From: Fibrobacter sp.
GTDB lineage: Bacteria > Fibrobacterota > Fibrobacteria > Fibrobacterales > Fibrobacteraceae
DNA: 64,000 nt
Assembly: GCA_012511955.1 (NCBI GenBank)
Contig: JAAZFC010000036.1
Span: forward strand, 1-64,000
Direction of reading: 5' to 3'
Shown: positions 46,543-53,537 of the stretch, one piece after another
Position numbering within the stretch: position 1 is the stretch's first letter
Layout of the letters: each line of letters begins with the position of its first letter
Program-made: the position numbers and the translations under genes
Notes under the pieces: generated by a model
The model's input: the letters and a program-made list of their open reading frames with translations, nothing else
Databases searched by the model: none
Told to the model about the DNA's origin: nothing

Positions 46543-48153
46543 CTAATAAGTCAAGAGTTCTTCTACAGCCCAAAGCAAATAAACCATAGGAGCATTCCAA
46601 TTTATGGCTATTTCATTGGTAGCAAAAGAAGCACGCTTATCCACATAAGAAAGCGTAGGTGGATCTTTGGGGTAAGGATCTAAACGATGAGCATCTTGCT
46701 GCTCAATATTAGGACCTCCCACTAAAAAACCGGGAATGGGTTCATCAATATCATCACCAGCTGAAACCCGATGATGCAAAAAGCGCGGTGGATTTTTACC
46801 AAAACCGCTGACAAAACTCCTTTCTAAAGGGTTCACTCCCAGCAAATAATCCAATTGTCGTACTGCGTCCTGGATATACTGCTTTTCTGAGCTTATCTGA
46901 GCTGCTATCAACAAAATCATCCCTTGAGTGGCTACTATGCCATTGCTTCCCCAAATAAAATCATCTTTTTGCATGGCCAAATGCACTGGCGACTGCTTTT
47001 GTTGGGCGCGCAACTGTTGCGCCATTTGTAAAATATGCTCCTGGGCTCCTTGGTCCTTTTTTACCATAGCTGCAGAAATCGCCCCTAAAGAGCTGACACT
47101 CCACCACTGGGGTAGCTCCGCTGTCAATGCTTGGGGTGCAATGCGCTTTTGGTAAGTATCTTTTCCCGTGCTTATCCACAATTCCCAAGCCGCCCAATAC
47201 AACTCGTCGTCGGTATGGGAGTTTGCATAAGGCCCTGTGTTAATATCTTCGGGCTGTACATAATGCTGTTCAGGATTGTCCAAAGCCCACGCAAACGCTC
47301 TTTCCGCCTGATTTAACCAAAACTTTGCCACTTTAGGTATATATTCTTTATAAACTCTCGCCGCTTGGGCCATGGATGCGGCAAAATACAAGCTCGCTGC
47401 CGTGCTTTTCATTACCACATAGCGCGGATTAAGGCAAGTATGAGGCATTTGCATGCTGTCAAAGCTCAAATTAGTAAGCTTATGATACACACCTCCATCG
47501 GGGGCTTGCATATTGGACATCCAGTCTAAATTCCATTTAACTTCTACTAATAAGTCGGGCAATTGAAGTTCATCTGGCGGAATATTAAAAGATATTTTTG
47601 AAGCTAATTGGGGCAAATGTTCCACCACCGCCAAAATCTTCCAAACACTAATCCCAGAATTTACGATATATTTATTATAATCTCCAGCATCATACCAGCC
47701 CTTGGGAGCAGAAATCACTGCGCCTTCGGGTAAAATAGCTTCGGCGGCGCTGGCGTGAATCAAAACTTCAGTATCGGGATGCCCAGCGGGCCTAGCCCAT
47801 TTACCCGCAAACTGCGGCTCTAGCTCCATACTCGCCCGCTGGAAATAAAATGATTTAAGTACCCCTTGGGCCAAAACTTCCCAAGGCTTTTCGCCCACGA
47901 CAATTTTCTGCTGAAAATCCCCCACTTCGAGAATATATTCCCCTTTTTCTCTTATTTCACTAAAATCGCATAGTTGCAAATTTAACTCAAAAAGAGCTTC
48001 AAACTGCGAAGGTGGAAGTTCTTTGCGTAAAACTTCAGTATTTGTATCAGCTTGGCGCACCACAAATTGCTTTGGGATAGAATTTTCTCCCGCCCAATAA
48101 GCAAATTTGTCAGCGTTTATATGATAACCTATGGTATTGTATAATATCGTCAT
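46543..48153 (-). CDS. GH9 glycoside hydrolase without a signal peptide
   Basis: A 536-residue protein: N-terminal Ig-like CelD_N domain (~1-95) then an (alpha/alpha)6 GH9 domain. Catalytic Asp pair in WYDAGDYNKYIVNSG, the HHR substrate-binding motif in PRFLHHRVSAGDD, and the acid Glu in SFATNEIAINWNAP are all present. The N-terminus MTILYNTIGYHINADK begins in the Ig domain without any hydrophobic leader, so it should be cytoplasmic, suggesting hydrolysis of imported cellodextrins. It starts 3 bp after the stop of the secreted GH9 gene and is in its operon. Confidence 0.9.
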   Translation of the reverse strand: MTILYNTIGYHINADKFAYWAGENSIPKQFVVRQADTNTEVLRKELPPSQFEALFELNLQLCDFSEIREKGEYILEVGDFQQKIVVGEKPWEVLAQGVLKSFYFQRASMELEPQFAGKWARPAGHPDTEVLIHASAAEAILPEGAVISAPKGWYDAGDYNKYIVNSGISVWKILAVVEHLPQLASKISFNIPPDELQLPDLLVEVKWNLDWMSNMQAPDGGVYHKLTNLSFDSMQMPHTCLNPRYVVMKSTAASLYFAASMAQAARVYKEYIPKVAKFWLNQAERAFAWALDNPEQHYVQPEDINTGPYANSHTDDELYWAAWELWISTGKDTYQKRIAPQALTAELPQWWSVSSLGAISAAMVKKDQGAQEHILQMAQQLRAQQKQSPVHLAMQKDDFIWGSNGIVATQGMILLIAAQISSEKQYIQDAVRQLDYLLGVNPLERSFVSGFGKNPPRFLHHRVSAGDDIDEPIPGFLVGGPNIEQQDAHRLDPYPKDPPTLSYVDKRASFATNEIAINWNAPMVYLLWAVEELLTY

Positions 48154-48156
48154 ATA

Positions 48157-50805
48157 TTACTTGTTAACCCAGGGTAAAACTTGTTGACCAGAGTGGTTAC
48201 GCACCCGCACCCATAAAATTCCCATATTTTTTTGCGGCACTAACTCTTTTAAAGCCACAGTAGAACTAATATGATGCTTTTGTCCTAGCATACGACCCTG
48301 TTTATCAAAAATTTCCAACTTTAAATTATCGCCAAACAAAGCATTTACATGCAAATAATCTCCTTTAATCACTGCCCCCAAATTCCTTTGAGTAGGAGCG
48401 TGCAAAACACCATCAGCCAACTCATCTTCAGCTAAAGGCTTTTTAGTAGCAAAAAGTTTAGTTGACTTAACATTTACCGTGCTAGTATCTAAACCCACCT
48501 CTAAATGCAGTGAAACATTTTCTGAACTGCGTGGTGCTTTAAAGGAATAGGCATATTTATAATAACGAGCACTGAGTACCGCCGTGCGTTGGGCAAATAA
48601 ATTAGTTCCATCACTTAACTTAATCCCCAAATCACGCACATTATTGGATTTAGCTTCAACTTCTATGGTATAATCCACTCCTTTAACTAAAGTTAAACCA
48701 TGTTGGGCTGTATAAACTTGCCCTAATTGTTTGCCAATTTCATAGGTTTTCAGCTGCAATGAGCTATCTTCACCCCATTTAGCATCGCCATAAGCGTCTT
48801 GCTTTGAATTGTAAGGAGAGCTTTTCCAGTGATTTATAGAGTCTGTAAATTTACGATTTTTCAAAATGCTTTTTTCGTATTCCACTCCAAGAGCTTTAAG
48901 CCACATATCTCCAGTAACTTCGAAACTTGTATCGCCGCTATTGCCAGCTAAGTCGCCAATCCAATCTTTAAATTTAATATCGCCACTTTCTTTGACTTTT
49001 ACTCGCACGCTATCTCCAATTTGGTACGAGTCTTTTTGGGGTTCTAGTTCTACATTTAAACCCGCACTGCTTTGAGCCAAAACCACGGGAGCAAATACTT
49101 CGCCCTTAGCAAGACTTTCATTTTCTCCTAATGTTGCTTCCACTGCTCCTATAAGAAGCACCAAAGGAGCTTGCCAGTTAATGGCAATTTCATTACTAGC
49201 ATAACTTTTGGTGTCATCGGTGTAGCATTTAGCTGATGCACAGCCAGTATTAATCAACCTATCTAAAGGACCATCTCCGCCCGAACCATTGGGACCACCC
49301 ACCACATAACCGGGAATGGGTTCTGGGATTTTATCAGCGATCAAAATACGCGCATGGGGATTACGAGGGTAATTGTATCCAATTCCTGTTACATAGCTGC
49401 GATTTAAAGGATTTTTGCCAAAAAAGTAGTCCGCCATTTCCCCCGCAGCTTTGAGGTAAGATAAATCGTCACTTAATTTATGTGCCACCAACAAAGTCGC
49501 CGCTGCTGAAGCCACCGCACCATTGGATCCCCAATAAAATGACAAATTAGGCAAACGCATGGGACTTTTCTCAATTTCTGTGAGCATTGCATCTGCTTTT
49601 GCCAGCACCACTTCTGCCAATGAATCTCCCAAATCCTTATCAATGCTTTTTGCCTCTAATGCCAAAGAATAAATACCCAAAGAAGCTACACTGTTCCAAC
49701 CCACAGTATTAACCTTGAAATTACCAGTTAATTCTTCTTTATATTTTTTGTCTTTAGTGGACAAAAACAGTTCCGCTGCAGCCCAATAAAACTCATCGCT
49801 AAAGCTATTATCTCCATAACCACCAGTCCGGACATCTTTAAACAATTTACTGTTCGCACCCTGGGTATAAGGAATTTTATCGTTCTTTTTGGCCCAGGCC
49901 CAAGCTAATTTGGCTCTAGCTAAACAAGTATCTGCAAAAGCGGGATCAATGTCTTTGTAACGCCTATAGGCTTGGGCAGTCATAGCCACAAAGTTCAGGG
50001 TAGAAGAAGTGCTTTTACCAATTACAAAACGCACGCTGGGATCATCTGCAGGCATCACGTTACCCGAAAAGTTCTTAGGCGTAACTTTGAAAAACACCCC
50101 ACCATCATCGTCTTGCATTTTTAAAAGCCAGTCAAACTCCCACCGTACTTCGTCAAATAAATCAGGAATACCATTACCACTTTCGGGGATATTTAAAATT
50201 TCATCTCCCGTCCAATCTGGGTGCAAATACATAAATAATTGCAACATTGCCACAGACATTCCTGCATTTACCACATACTTTCCATAATCCCCAGCATCGT
50301 ACCATCCCCGAGATACATCTCGAGTGGCGCCTTTAGGTTTATCCAGATCTTCGTGATAGGCTAAATCATCGTCGGGATGACCAAATTCCCGCGCGAAAAT
50401 CCCGCCGTGTTCTTCGGGGATTTCTGTGCTGGCGCGCCACAGGTAAAAAGCTCGTTGAATATCTTGGTAAGCATCTGCATAGACATCTTTGCGAATGCGA
50501 AAAGCCATGGAACGACTCTCTCCCACGGCTTCTATGATGTACAAACCTTCGTCAGTGAGCTTAGAAAAATCAGCTTTTTGCACCATTTCTTGGGAACTAT
50601 TCCACAAAGCTGGTTTAGTCAAAGCCCCGCGCAACACAACCTTATCGGATAGAGCGTCGCGCACATAAAAAGAATCAGCTCCACCGTGGGGAATCACCGC
50701 CCATTTGTTTGCCTGGGGATGGTAGCCTAAATGATTTATGTGGATTTCAGCGGCAAAACCAAAACTCATTAATAATATTATTAAGCTAAAAATGTGTTTT
50801 TTCAT
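48157..50805 (-). CDS. Secreted GH9 cellulase with carbohydrate-binding and sorting-like C-terminal domains
   Basis: An 882-residue protein from the ATG at 50805 (GAGG 6 nt upstream). Signal peptide (HIFSLIILLMSFGFAAE), CelD_N Ig-like domain (~20-105), GH9 catalytic domain (~110-575) with WYDAGDYGKYVVNAG, NPHARI and the acid Glu in SYASNEIAINWQAP. After a linker comes a CBM4/9-like domain (~690-800; ILKNRKFTDSINHW start), then a final ~80 residues (GDNLKLEIFDKQGRML and GILWVRVRNHSG) with the shape of a type IX secretion sorting tail. It degrades beta-1,4-glucan outside the cell. Confidence 0.9.
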   Translation of the reverse strand: MKKHIFSLIILLMSFGFAAEIHINHLGYHPQANKWAVIPHGGADSFYVRDALSDKVVLRGALTKPALWNSSQEMVQKADFSKLTDEGLYIIEAVGESRSMAFRIRKDVYADAYQDIQRAFYLWRASTEIPEEHGGIFAREFGHPDDDLAYHEDLDKPKGATRDVSRGWYDAGDYGKYVVNAGMSVAMLQLFMYLHPDWTGDEILNIPESGNGIPDLFDEVRWEFDWLLKMQDDDGGVFFKVTPKNFSGNVMPADDPSVRFVIGKSTSSTLNFVAMTAQAYRRYKDIDPAFADTCLARAKLAWAWAKKNDKIPYTQGANSKLFKDVRTGGYGDNSFSDEFYWAAAELFLSTKDKKYKEELTGNFKVNTVGWNSVASLGIYSLALEAKSIDKDLGDSLAEVVLAKADAMLTEIEKSPMRLPNLSFYWGSNGAVASAAATLLVAHKLSDDLSYLKAAGEMADYFFGKNPLNRSYVTGIGYNYPRNPHARILIADKIPEPIPGYVVGGPNGSGGDGPLDRLINTGCASAKCYTDDTKSYASNEIAINWQAPLVLLIGAVEATLGENESLAKGEVFAPVVLAQSSAGLNVELEPQKDSYQIGDSVRVKVKESGDIKFKDWIGDLAGNSGDTSFEVTGDMWLKALGVEYEKSILKNRKFTDSINHWKSSPYNSKQDAYGDAKWGEDSSLQLKTYEIGKQLGQVYTAQHGLTLVKGVDYTIEVEAKSNNVRDLGIKLSDGTNLFAQRTAVLSARYYKYAYSFKAPRSSENVSLHLEVGLDTSTVNVKSTKLFATKKPLAEDELADGVLHAPTQRNLGAVIKGDYLHVNALFGDNLKLEIFDKQGRMLGQKHHISSTVALKELVPQKNMGILWVRVRNHSGQQVLPWVNK

Positions 50806-50821
50806 AATCAACCTCATCTAG

Positions 50822-50827
50822 TTTATA
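50822..50827 (-). promoter_or_regulatory. -10-like box before the secreted GH9 gene
   Basis: TATAAA on the minus strand, 17 nt before the GH9 start codon at 50805. The expected transcript start would be near 50815, leaving a leader of roughly 10 nt with GAGG. Confidence 0.4.
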
Positions 50828-50877
50828 CAATTAAATTAGTTTCAGTTGGCATATTGCAACTTGGAGTATATTTGATT

Positions 50878-50897
50878 TTGGTTACTGCTGTAACCAA
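50878..50897. promoter_or_regulatory. Palindromic operator-like site upstream of GH9
   Basis: A perfect 8-bp inverted repeat, TTGGTTAC (50878-50885), spacer TGCT, GTAACCAA (50890-50897). The core GGTTAC-N4-GTAACC recurs at 53081-53096 before the TIGR02147 gene. It sits 5 bp after the stop of the upstream lipoprotein gene and 52 nt upstream of the TATAAA box. Confidence 0.7.
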
Positions 50898-50901
50898 GTG
50901 C

Positions 50902-52164
50902 TTAAGGTAATTGCACCAAGCTTATGTTGCGCAGCCAAACCGTGCGTTTCCATAAACCAAGGTTAAACTCTAAACGCCCAAAAGGCGTGGTTTCTTTGGC
51001 GCAAAGTTGCAAAGAATGCTTTGTTGGTGTGGTTTGCAAATGAATTCGAAAGTTCATATTACCATGATCTAAATTATCGTAGGGTGCCATATAGCGCCCT
51101 AAACGAGTCAAAATATTAGTTTGCTCCACATCGGACCACGCTTCGAAACTCAGCTCATAGCAACGACCTTGGACTATTTCAATATCTTCTTGCATCCATT
51201 GCACCGAATAATCGTGGGTACCAGGTTCATGTACACTAATCTTAACTTTATTGTCATTAACCATAGTGTCGGCTACACCGTCCAATTGGGTTAAGAAAAC
51301 CCATGAATTTCCAAACTCTTTAAAATCACCGTTTTTTACCCTTTCTCCATTGGGTTTATCAAACTGCTTCACCGCCCAATCTTGTATCTCCCAGGCTTTT
51401 TCTTCGCCACCAACAATCATCTGGTAGCGAGTAGCATTAAAAGCTTTGGGGAAATATGCTACCAAACTATCTAATAAATCAGCATTGCTGGTTTCACTGA
51501 TAATTATTTCCTGGTTTTCCTCAACTTCTACATTGCTAAAGTCCACTGTTTTTAACCAAGTTTCAGGGTGAAATAATACACTAAGATCATATTTCGGCGA
51601 CTCTTCCTCAGAAGAACGAGATAAATCGTTGATAATTTGCGCATGATGGTAACGCAATCGCAATGTCAATGAATCTGGCAAAATGATTTTAACTTGTGCA
51701 TCCAAAGGAATATAGTGAGAAACAAATTCTTGTTTGGACAAATCCAATAATAAGCCTACTTCTTTGAGGTAGCTACGACTAGGAATGTTTATGTTTTGGA
51801 AATTAACTTCTAAACTATCACCATTAAGCAAATCTATCTGTACCGAAGGATCCTCTTCGTTTTTAGGCCATAAAATAGTACCTACACTTGCATCTATAGG
51901 TATGTAGTAATAATAACTGCCAAAATAAGACACTCGCTTAAGATTAAAGCTAACTTTTTGCCATTGCACAGAATCTACATTCATGGCAATAACTTTTCCT
52001 AAAAAATCAAAATAAGCTTCACCTGGGGCAAGACTAAACCGTGCACTCATGGAAACCATAGGATTACCAATTTCTGTACCTGCATTTTGCACAGAATCGC
52101 CACTAGAACAGGACCAAAACAAGAAGCTAGCTAAAAAAGCCGCCAATATTTTTTTACGCAACAT
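50902..52164 (-). CDS. Lipoprotein with possible C-terminal carbohydrate-binding domain
   Basis: A 420-residue lipoprotein (lipid Cys in FWSCSS, ~residue 19) followed by NAGTEIGNP, a short motif I associate with Fibrobacter-type lipoproteins paired with TIGR02147 proteins. The middle is beta-rich (LNGDSLEVNFQNINIPSRS). Residues ~275-420 resemble a CBM4/9-like jelly roll (NGDFKEFGNSWVF, ELSFEAWSDVEQTN, NFRIHLQTTPTKHSLQL). It starts 1 bp after the stop of the TIGR02147 gene, so the two are co-transcribed. It may bind polysaccharide at the cell surface. Confidence 0.65.
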   Translation of the reverse strand: MLRKKILAAFLASFLFWSCSSGDSVQNAGTEIGNPMVSMSARFSLAPGEAYFDFLGKVIAMNVDSVQWQKVSFNLKRVSYFGSYYYYIPIDASVGTILWPKNEEDPSVQIDLLNGDSLEVNFQNINIPSRSYLKEVGLLLDLSKQEFVSHYIPLDAQVKIILPDSLTLRLRYHHAQIINDLSRSSEEESPKYDLSVLFHPETWLKTVDFSNVEVEENQEIIISETSNADLLDSLVAYFPKAFNATRYQMIVGGEEKAWEIQDWAVKQFDKPNGERVKNGDFKEFGNSWVFLTQLDGVADTMVNDNKVKISVHEPGTHDYSVQWMQEDIEIVQGRCYELSFEAWSDVEQTNILTRLGRYMAPYDNLDHGNMNFRIHLQTTPTKHSLQLCAKETTPFGRLEFNLGLWKRTVWLRNISLVQLP

Positions 52165-52165
52165 A

Positions 52166-53017
52166 TCAATTCCTAGTTAGAGGAAAGAGCTGTATATTCA
52201 CTTGGACTATATCATCTCCTTCACCTTCATCTGCAGAGAAATCTAATATCTCTTTTCGCATAAGTTGCAGATGTTTCTTTAAATTAGGAAATTCTTTGGC
52301 TTTAATGGGGAAAATTAATGAACTAATATCTCTTTCTTCTGCTGACACCTCTCCCATAGCCAAAGAAGCTTGTTTAAGCATCTGCTCATGAAAATCACGG
52401 ACTAAGTCGTACTGAACCTCGTCATCTGTAGTGATATTTGTATCATTTTGCTTATAACCATTGGGAGTTCTAGTTATTAAGCCTAATTCTTGCAGTAGTT
52501 TTAATGAATCTTGAATGTCTGCTCTACTCAATTTAGTTCGCATGCGGCGCATAAACCATTCTGGTGCTGCACTAAATCCCTCAAGAGCAATCATCTCGCG
52601 TATTAAAATATGATGCCATTCTCTAAAAATACGAAATTGGGTATCTTCTAACTTGCGAAAACGAGAGCGTGGAGTACATTTAACGAGATTTTCATAATAA
52701 ATCTGCTTTTCTACGCTATCTTTAGCCTGATTGAAGAAAACTAAATTTTCAAAATACTCAGCTTTTTTTCCAGTAAGCCCCAAACCCACAATTATTTTAG
52801 TTACGGTACTTTTAGTGACATTGCGAGTACCATCCATGGCCAATTTTAAATGTGCATGACTAGATAAACCTGCTTTTTCAGCAAAATAACGCAAAGAAAA
52901 CACGGAAGATGTTTTTTTCCGCCAGTTATAAAAATCTTTCAAGTAAACACGATAGTTTGTGTAATGCAACACATCGGGTTCAGGCAAAGATTCCTTGTTT
53001 TTCTTTTTTTTGCTCAT
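52166..53017 (-). CDS. TIGR02147-family protein, likely DNA-binding regulator
   Basis: A 283-residue cytoplasmic protein of the TIGR02147 family, which is greatly expanded in Fibrobacter and has no established role. The N-terminal part (YTNYRVYLKDFYNWRK, then FSLRYFAEKAGLSSHAHLKLAMDGTRNVTKSTVTKI) has a helix-turn-helix look at ~residues 45-80. The rest is helical with a winged-helix-like segment (SRADIQDSLKLLQELGLITRTPNGY). Upstream on this strand a TATAAT (53034-53039) and the palindrome GGTTAC-N4-GTAACC (53081-53096) precede it. Overlap with the lipoprotein gene (1-bp gap) marks an operon. The regulatory role is inference. Confidence 0.82.
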   Translation of the reverse strand: MSKKKKNKESLPEPDVLHYTNYRVYLKDFYNWRKKTSSVFSLRYFAEKAGLSSHAHLKLAMDGTRNVTKSTVTKIIVGLGLTGKKAEYFENLVFFNQAKDSVEKQIYYENLVKCTPRSRFRKLEDTQFRIFREWHHILIREMIALEGFSAAPEWFMRRMRTKLSRADIQDSLKLLQELGLITRTPNGYKQNDTNITTDDEVQYDLVRDFHEQMLKQASLAMGEVSAEERDISSLIFPIKAKEFPNLKKHLQLMRKEILDFSADEGEGDDIVQVNIQLFPLTRN

Positions 53018-53033
53018 AATTATCTCTTAATAT

Positions 53034-53039
53034 ATTATA
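53034..53039 (-). promoter_or_regulatory. -10 box (TATAAT) before the TIGR02147 gene
   Basis: A perfect TATAAT on the minus strand, 16 nt before the start at 53017, predicting a very short leader of about 10 nt. No good -35 is visible, which fits activator-dependent transcription. Confidence 0.55.
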
Positions 53040-53080
53040 CATGTTTAAAAGAAACTAAGTGAAACAAAAACAAGCTATTC

Positions 53081-53096
53081 GGTTACGATAGTAACC
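53081..53096. promoter_or_regulatory. Palindromic operator-like site upstream of the TIGR02147 gene
   Basis: GGTTAC (53081-53086), spacer GATA, GTAACC (53091-53096), followed by AA as in the GH9 copy. It lies 41 nt upstream of the TATAAT, versus 52 nt for the GH9 copy: a difference of one helical turn. Confidence 0.7.
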
Positions 53097-53108
53097 AATC
53101 AACAACAA

Positions 53109-53537
53109 TTAAGGACTTCCTACATATAAAACACTGAAGCCATTTTGGCACTCACACTTCAATTTACCACCGCATAATTCACGGGCGGGAAAGTATTCTA
53201 ATTCAACTTTTTTAGCTATTCGTCGATTAGTGTCTGTACCTAAATCTAAAATTTTCTTATGACATTCAAAAACTTCACCCTCTTCATCGGCATTAGGGTT
53301 GCACAAAAACATCTCCCCAGTTTCATCTTCTATATAATAAGCTCCTGTGCGGCACCGATCTGTGGTTTTGAACACAATATCGCCTAAAACTGTAGAACAC
53401 CACGATGTGGTAGGCGTTGTACCTTCAAGCTCTAAAATTTGCGCTATGCTGCGTTCTGTACACCATTCATGGCTTTCATTTTTAGAACATGCTACTAAGA
53501 ACAAAAATGACAAAATTAAAACTAAATATTTTTGCAT
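53109..53537 (-). CDS. Cys-rich lipoprotein of unknown function
   Basis: A 142-residue lipoprotein (lipid Cys in LVACSK, ~residue 17) with eight further cysteines after the anchor (for example WCTERS, SWCST, RCRTG, FLCN, FECHK, LCGGKLKCECQNG), suggesting several disulfides. The gene is monocistronic with a TATATT 6 nt before its ATG. It is located between the MCP gene and the TIGR02147 operon. Family not recognised. Confidence 0.6.
   Translation of the reverse strand: MQKYLVLILSFLFLVACSKNESHEWCTERSIAQILELEGTTPTTSWCSTVLGDIVFKTTDRCRTGAYYIEDETGEMFLCNPNADEEGEVFECHKKILDLGTDTNRRIAKKVELEYFPARELCGGKLKCECQNGFSVLYVGSP

Follow-up and report, generated by a model that had tools for sequence, protein, structure and literature searches.

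A palindrome before cellulase genes of the Fibrobacteraceae, and a TIGR02147 protein as its likely reader

The palindrome G[GT]TTAC-N4-GTAA[AC]C almost certainly marks a cellulase regulon in the Fibrobacteraceae, and a TIGR02147 protein, whose own operon carries the site, is likely to be the protein that reads it. Judged from sequence, the combined reading, in which the dyad is the operator of the cellulase regulon and the TIGR02147 protein is both its reader and an autoregulated class I activator, is fairly likely as a whole. The features concerned lie in what we call the window, i.e. the whole 64,000-nt stretch of DNA that was analysed:

53081-53096, no strand: dyad 1, GGTTAC-GATA-GTAACC, 5' of the TIGR02147-lipoprotein operon
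53034-53039, minus strand: -10-like box TATAAT, 41 nt after dyad 1, a spacing as in relatives
52166-53017, minus strand: TIGR02147/DUF4423 protein, 283 aa, proposed dyad reader (profile searches, structure model)
50902-52164, minus strand: lipoprotein, 420 aa, in the same operon as the regulator, with lipobox Cys19 and then a GTEIGNP motif
50880-50895, no strand: dyad 2, GGTTAC-TGCT-GTAACC, 5' of the secreted GH9 gene
50833-50838, minus strand: -10-like box TAATTT, 41 nt after dyad 2, favoured from the sequence
50822-50827, minus strand: alternative -10-like box TATAAA, 52 nt after dyad 2, the box used in the initial annotation
48157-50805, minus strand: secreted GH9 cellulase with CelD_N and CBM4_9 domains, in an ORF that opens at 50817
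46543-48153, minus strand: second GH9 gene, 3 nt behind the first and lacking an evident signal peptide (pair also in genome G002)

As the initial annotation had it, both dyads (GGTTACGATAGTAACC at 53081-53096 and GGTTACTGCTGTAACC at 50880-50895) are exact, and no third exact GGTTAC-N4-GTAACC copy occurs in the window; the same is true of the whole 2.68 Mb genome, as the organism's own assembly (2,684,251 bp, 150 contigs) holds these two copies in total. The gene identities given there (TIGR02147, lipoprotein, secreted GH9) also match domain searches. In dyad 1 the centres of the two half-sites are exactly 10 bp from each other. The two dyads flank the TIGR02147-lipoprotein operon: dyad 1 stands in front of it, and dyad 2 separates it from the GH9 gene. 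Could such inverted repeats be terminators, mobile repeats or chance? Dyad 2 does lie 6 nt past the lipoprotein stop codon, but a T-run is absent after the repeat on the relevant strand, the exact copies in the genome number only two, and orthologous promoters keep the dyad at fixed spacing. We give this reading next to no credence; the terminator and chance readings were dropped because sequence, copy number and conservation all contradict them.

The evidence for a regulon comes from a family-wide scan for additional sites with the pattern GKTTACNNNNGTAAMC, for which the reversed pattern served as control. We read 76 secondary sites. An ORF starts 50-100 nt downstream of 33 of them, most often at 71-80 nt, and in 32 of these 33 cases the ORF is a cellulase-type gene or a BLAST relative of one; in the control, 0 of 30 sites fall in the 50-100 nt range and 25 lie inside ORFs. 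The difference in position between dyad and control sites (Fisher p ~1e-6) is to be taken as indicative, the related genomes being non-independent. Pfam assigns representative targets to GH5 (eight), GH9 (two), GH45, CBM30+CBM11 and CotH, and finds no match for two others, the target at L155 and the 972-aa protein at L156. In other words, one operator is shared by GH5, GH9, GH45 and CBM11/30 genes, and the check proposed in the initial annotation, enrichment of the dyad across the family, yields sites upstream of TIGR02147 orthologs and of cellulase-type genes. When one mismatch is allowed, 13 more sites appear in the organism's own genome, nine inside ORFs and four intergenic; the intergenic ones stand as follows:

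64 nt before a GH5+CBM6 gene
54 nt before the likely start of a GH9 gene
97 nt before a CotH/lamin-tail (LTD) protein gene
137 nt before a CBM30 protein gene

At the GH5+CBM6, GH9 and CotH sites, a -10-like box follows at 40-42 nt, the usual distance. The suggested regulon, which was to join cellulases with a carbohydrate-binding lipoprotein, thus shows genome-wide in its sites and its targets. Raw counts are a different matter: genome G000 holds 3 dyads vs 7 reversed controls (16 vs 45 with one mismatch allowed), and since the control is the commoner and site counts alone are uninformative there, what carries the signal is where the sites lie and which genes they precede, not how many there are. 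Two further observations belong to the scan. At L103 (G000 contig 87), the gene for an iron-containing alcohol dehydrogenase begins 48 nt downstream of GTTTACAAATGTAAAC, and TAATTT is found at a spacing of 41 nt; this exact-class site may be due to chance or may mark a further target. A dyad also recurs 124-155 nt before a gene for a ~130-aa membrane-protein-like product and/or a divergent ~469-aa gene (L149, L150, L073, L170, L159, L056 and L065); neither gene has a Pfam or NCBIfam match, and both are possible further members of the regulon.

At the regulator locus itself, the TIGR02147 protein belongs to a sharply separated ortholog group (56-63% identity) present in about 90 of the 111 family genomes, in which the other listed TIGR02147 paralogs reach at most 35% identity with one exception (50%, in G045), and a lipoprotein relative (26-42% identity) follows every ortholog in the 20 genomes examined. 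A dyad of the same shape was seen upstream of the ortholog in 29 relatives. A search of contigs with the single window protein as query gave no match; with the ortholog alignment as query, 62 orthologs were found on named Fibrobacter and Fibrobacteraceae contigs, and for all 62 a match to G[GT]TTAC-N4-GTAA[AC]C lies no more than 140 nt from the start, with two mismatches at most (48 exact, 11 with one mismatch, 3 with two), vs an average best match of ~4.4 mismatches in random 140-nt windows from the same loci. The initial annotation had staked its proposal on conservation at orthologous loci, and this is where it is seen. The dyad is missing before six of seven distant homologs (28-34% identity), the seventh having it with two mismatches, and none stands before the TIGR02147 paralogs read in G027 and G041. 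It is present in every examined genome that has the TIGR02147 operon, the only target so consistent, as expected for autoregulation. Of the other genomes sampled, G002 alone, from another genus, has the two GH9 genes next to the operon, and there the link to the cellulase can be followed: the dyad upstream of its GH9 start, GTTTCCCCGGGTAAAC, has one mismatch (L089:7913), and a -10-like TAGGTT follows 42 nt after it (offset counted by eye). The motif link between TIGR02147 and GH9 is therefore conserved where the gene order is.

Does the TIGR02147 protein read the dyad, or is its operon merely another target of a different transcription factor that reads a real cellulase operator? The latter, which we consider unlikely, draws on G027, a genome that is 99% complete and keeps sites at three GH5 promoters although neither the TIGR02147 ortholog nor the lipoprotein was detected in it; G041 and G043 resemble it in retaining near-sites. 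A substitute TIGR02147 paralog carrying the dyad was sought in the ortholog-less genomes, and none was found among the paralogs read. Against a different reader, genomes without the ortholog are mostly incomplete, and G027 is without the usual syntenic neighbour as well; in G041 a run of N (a scaffold gap) comes right after the gene that normally precedes the cluster, and in G042 the contig ends at that point, so part of the absence may be a matter of assembly. A different reader also sits less easily with the TIGR02147 operon being the sole target with a site in every examined genome that carries it, and with the covariation of half-site and helix-turn-helix (HTH) segment in other Fibrobacteria. 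There, the half-site is changed (GTATAC/GTTAAC), the spacing of 42-43 nt is retained, and the HTH segment SSHAHLKL becomes SSPNYLKL or TSPNYLKL; three GC-rich genomes of this group have a homolog of 48-50% identity and GTATACATTTGTTAAC at 43 nt. Half-site and HTH segment appear to change together, and this may reflect a single evolutionary event. It is the counter-evidence from G027 and the genomes that resemble it, part of it perhaps due to assembly, that leads us to rate the TIGR02147 protein as the likely reader and the regulon as almost certain.

What kind of protein is the candidate reader? It is a full-length member of a family that itself has no assigned function: it matches the NCBIfam model TIGR02147 (Fsuc_second) with 290.7 bits vs a cut-off of 50, over model positions 2-271 of 272, and PF14394 (DUF4423) with 133.6 bits. 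Pfam and NCBIfam give these two alone (E<=0.001), with no LacI or CelR domain. Its AlphaFold2 model is of moderate confidence (pLDDT 66) and contains an HTH-like unit (helices 42-49 and 54-62) and a winged-helix-like unit (residues 152-190); in an alignment of 18 orthologs, the HTH-region segment KAGLSSHAHLKL is nearly invariant. A search of these 18 orthologs found no XRE/HTH_3-type Pfam family in the N-terminus, where its hits are confined to weak ones of MarR/LexA type. A fold search with the model returned no match below E 0.001, only weak MarR/CggR-type resemblances, and a PDB sequence search only coiled-coil chance matches and one weak MarR match. The HTH-like N-terminus noted earlier agrees with the structure model (helices 42-62), and Pfam has no HTH family there. 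The protein is probably DNA-binding. A literature search found no published function for TIGR02147/Fsuc_second, and in the literature searched DUF4423 appears only in a protein list of one paper.

The geometry of the promoters suggests how such a protein might act. The initial annotation placed the -10 boxes 41 and 52 nt from the dyads; the first distance holds for the TIGR02147 promoter, and the second needs correction, as the GH9 promoter offers two candidates, TAATTT at 41 nt and TATAAA at 52 nt. Its argument that the two distances differ by one helical turn has independent support nonetheless, because relatives use both a 40-44 nt and a 52-53 nt class. A TAnnnT box lies 40-44 nt after the dyad in 29 of 29 ortholog promoters scored (background 19% per five-base window) and in 28 of 37 secondary promoters (background 10%); four further promoters have the box at 51-53 nt, and some GH5 promoters in relatives use 52-53 nt. 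The 11-bp step between the classes means that the same face of the DNA is kept. An alignment of 32 dissimilar promoters by their -10 boxes shows no conserved -35; the aligned promoters share a TA-A/T-A/T-TT(T) box and, with no -35, resemble promoters of the Bacteroidota type. With the measured spacings, the dyad is centred at about -61 or -72, close to where class I activators bind: the sites of CRP, for example, lie at -61.5 and -72.5. The operator here is likewise a symmetric site on the 16-bp scale, upstream of the core promoter in fixed helical phase, with a weak or absent -35, although CRP belongs to a protein family unrelated to TIGR02147 and has a different half-site. Autoregulated operators are often repressor sites, and this general point favours a TIGR02147 protein that represses from the dyad and is released by cellulose breakdown products. 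Repression would also suit the expression of substrate-responsive cellulase genes in F. succinogenes, which is lowest on glucose (PMC6204037). We find it quite unlikely all the same, as the site is centred ~61 nt upstream in fixed helical phase, outside the core promoter, and the promoters have no conserved -35. Positive control by the TIGR02147 protein is what we infer.

In the structure model of the lipoprotein (pLDDT 79), the C-terminal part folds into a CBM4-like jelly roll, which Foldseek matches to the CBM4 structures 1gui (E 9e-12) and 3p6b of CelK (E 2e-11); the fold resembles the CBM4 of CelK and CbhA. Pfam CBM_4_9 scores 22.3 bits, under its cut-off of 25.9; the predicted structure supports the carbohydrate-binding lipoprotein proposed beside the regulator. 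For the first GH9 gene, a start at 50805 (MKKHIF..., with GAGG before the ATG) is more likely than one at 50817 on sequence grounds; it lies 74 nt from dyad 2, and the usual distance in other targets is 71-80 nt. The second GH9 gene is probably co-transcribed with the first. We envisage that a TIGR02147 dimer would bind the dyad with one HTH per half-site, the half-sites being one helical turn apart, and from about -61 (or -72) would recruit RNA polymerase to -35-less promoters in the class I manner. Two kinds of target would thereby come under its control: its own operon, which also encodes the lipoprotein with its cellulose-binding-type module, and genes for secreted cellulases, here GH9 and, at other loci of this genome and of relatives, GH5, GH9, GH45, CBM11/CBM30 and CotH genes. 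The signal may be supplied by the lipoprotein or by a cellulose breakdown product. The self- and cellulase-controlling activator of the initial annotation is thus supported by site conservation and targets, with reader and sign of control being inferred.

Known systems offer partial parallels. CelR-type LacI regulators control cellulases in actinobacteria and resemble the present case in having one palindrome before many dispersed cellulase genes; they differ in family, site and the lipoprotein operon, the LacI domain being absent here. Sus-like loci of Bacteroidota likewise tie a glycan-binding lipoprotein to glycan-degradation genes and a regulator, whereas the targets here are dispersed and no hybrid two-component protein, ECF sigma/anti-sigma pair or SusCD pair was found at the locus. 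The genome paper on F. succinogenes S85 cites CelR, treats the transcriptional regulation of cellulases as an unanswered question and expects their regulators elsewhere in the genome (PMC3079729). A transcriptome of F. succinogenes found 12 of 32 cellulase genes to be substrate-responsive, and its text describes expression patterns without the words 'regulator', 'promoter' or 'motif' (PMC6204037). The present analysis offers a candidate for the long-missing cellulase regulator of these gut bacteria, a defined operator and a target list for dominant rumen cellulose degraders, and a possible function for TIGR02147, a large unannotated protein family.

We advance a broader suggestion tentatively: TIGR02147 proteins may be cross-phylum DNA-binding autoregulators, each of them coupled in translation to a lipoprotein of its own with a GTExGNP-like box behind the lipid-anchored cysteine, the one described here being the cellulase master regulator of the Fibrobacteraceae. 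If so, paired cassettes of an envelope lipoprotein and a gene regulator would form a class so far unnamed. In Fibrobacterota, Bdellovibrionota and Planctomycetota, a TIGR02147 gene very often has a lipoprotein gene behind it, the two commonly overlapping by 4 or 8 nt, and close to their lipobox cysteine the partner lipoproteins carry a GTExGNP-like (or AGGxxE) box (L257-L275, L287-L316); such pairs look like a general two-gene cassette. The window's TIGR02147 gene is preceded by a 142-aa lipoprotein-like gene (53109-53537), homologs of which are found near TIGR02147 orthologs in other genera (L089, L096, L097 and L099).
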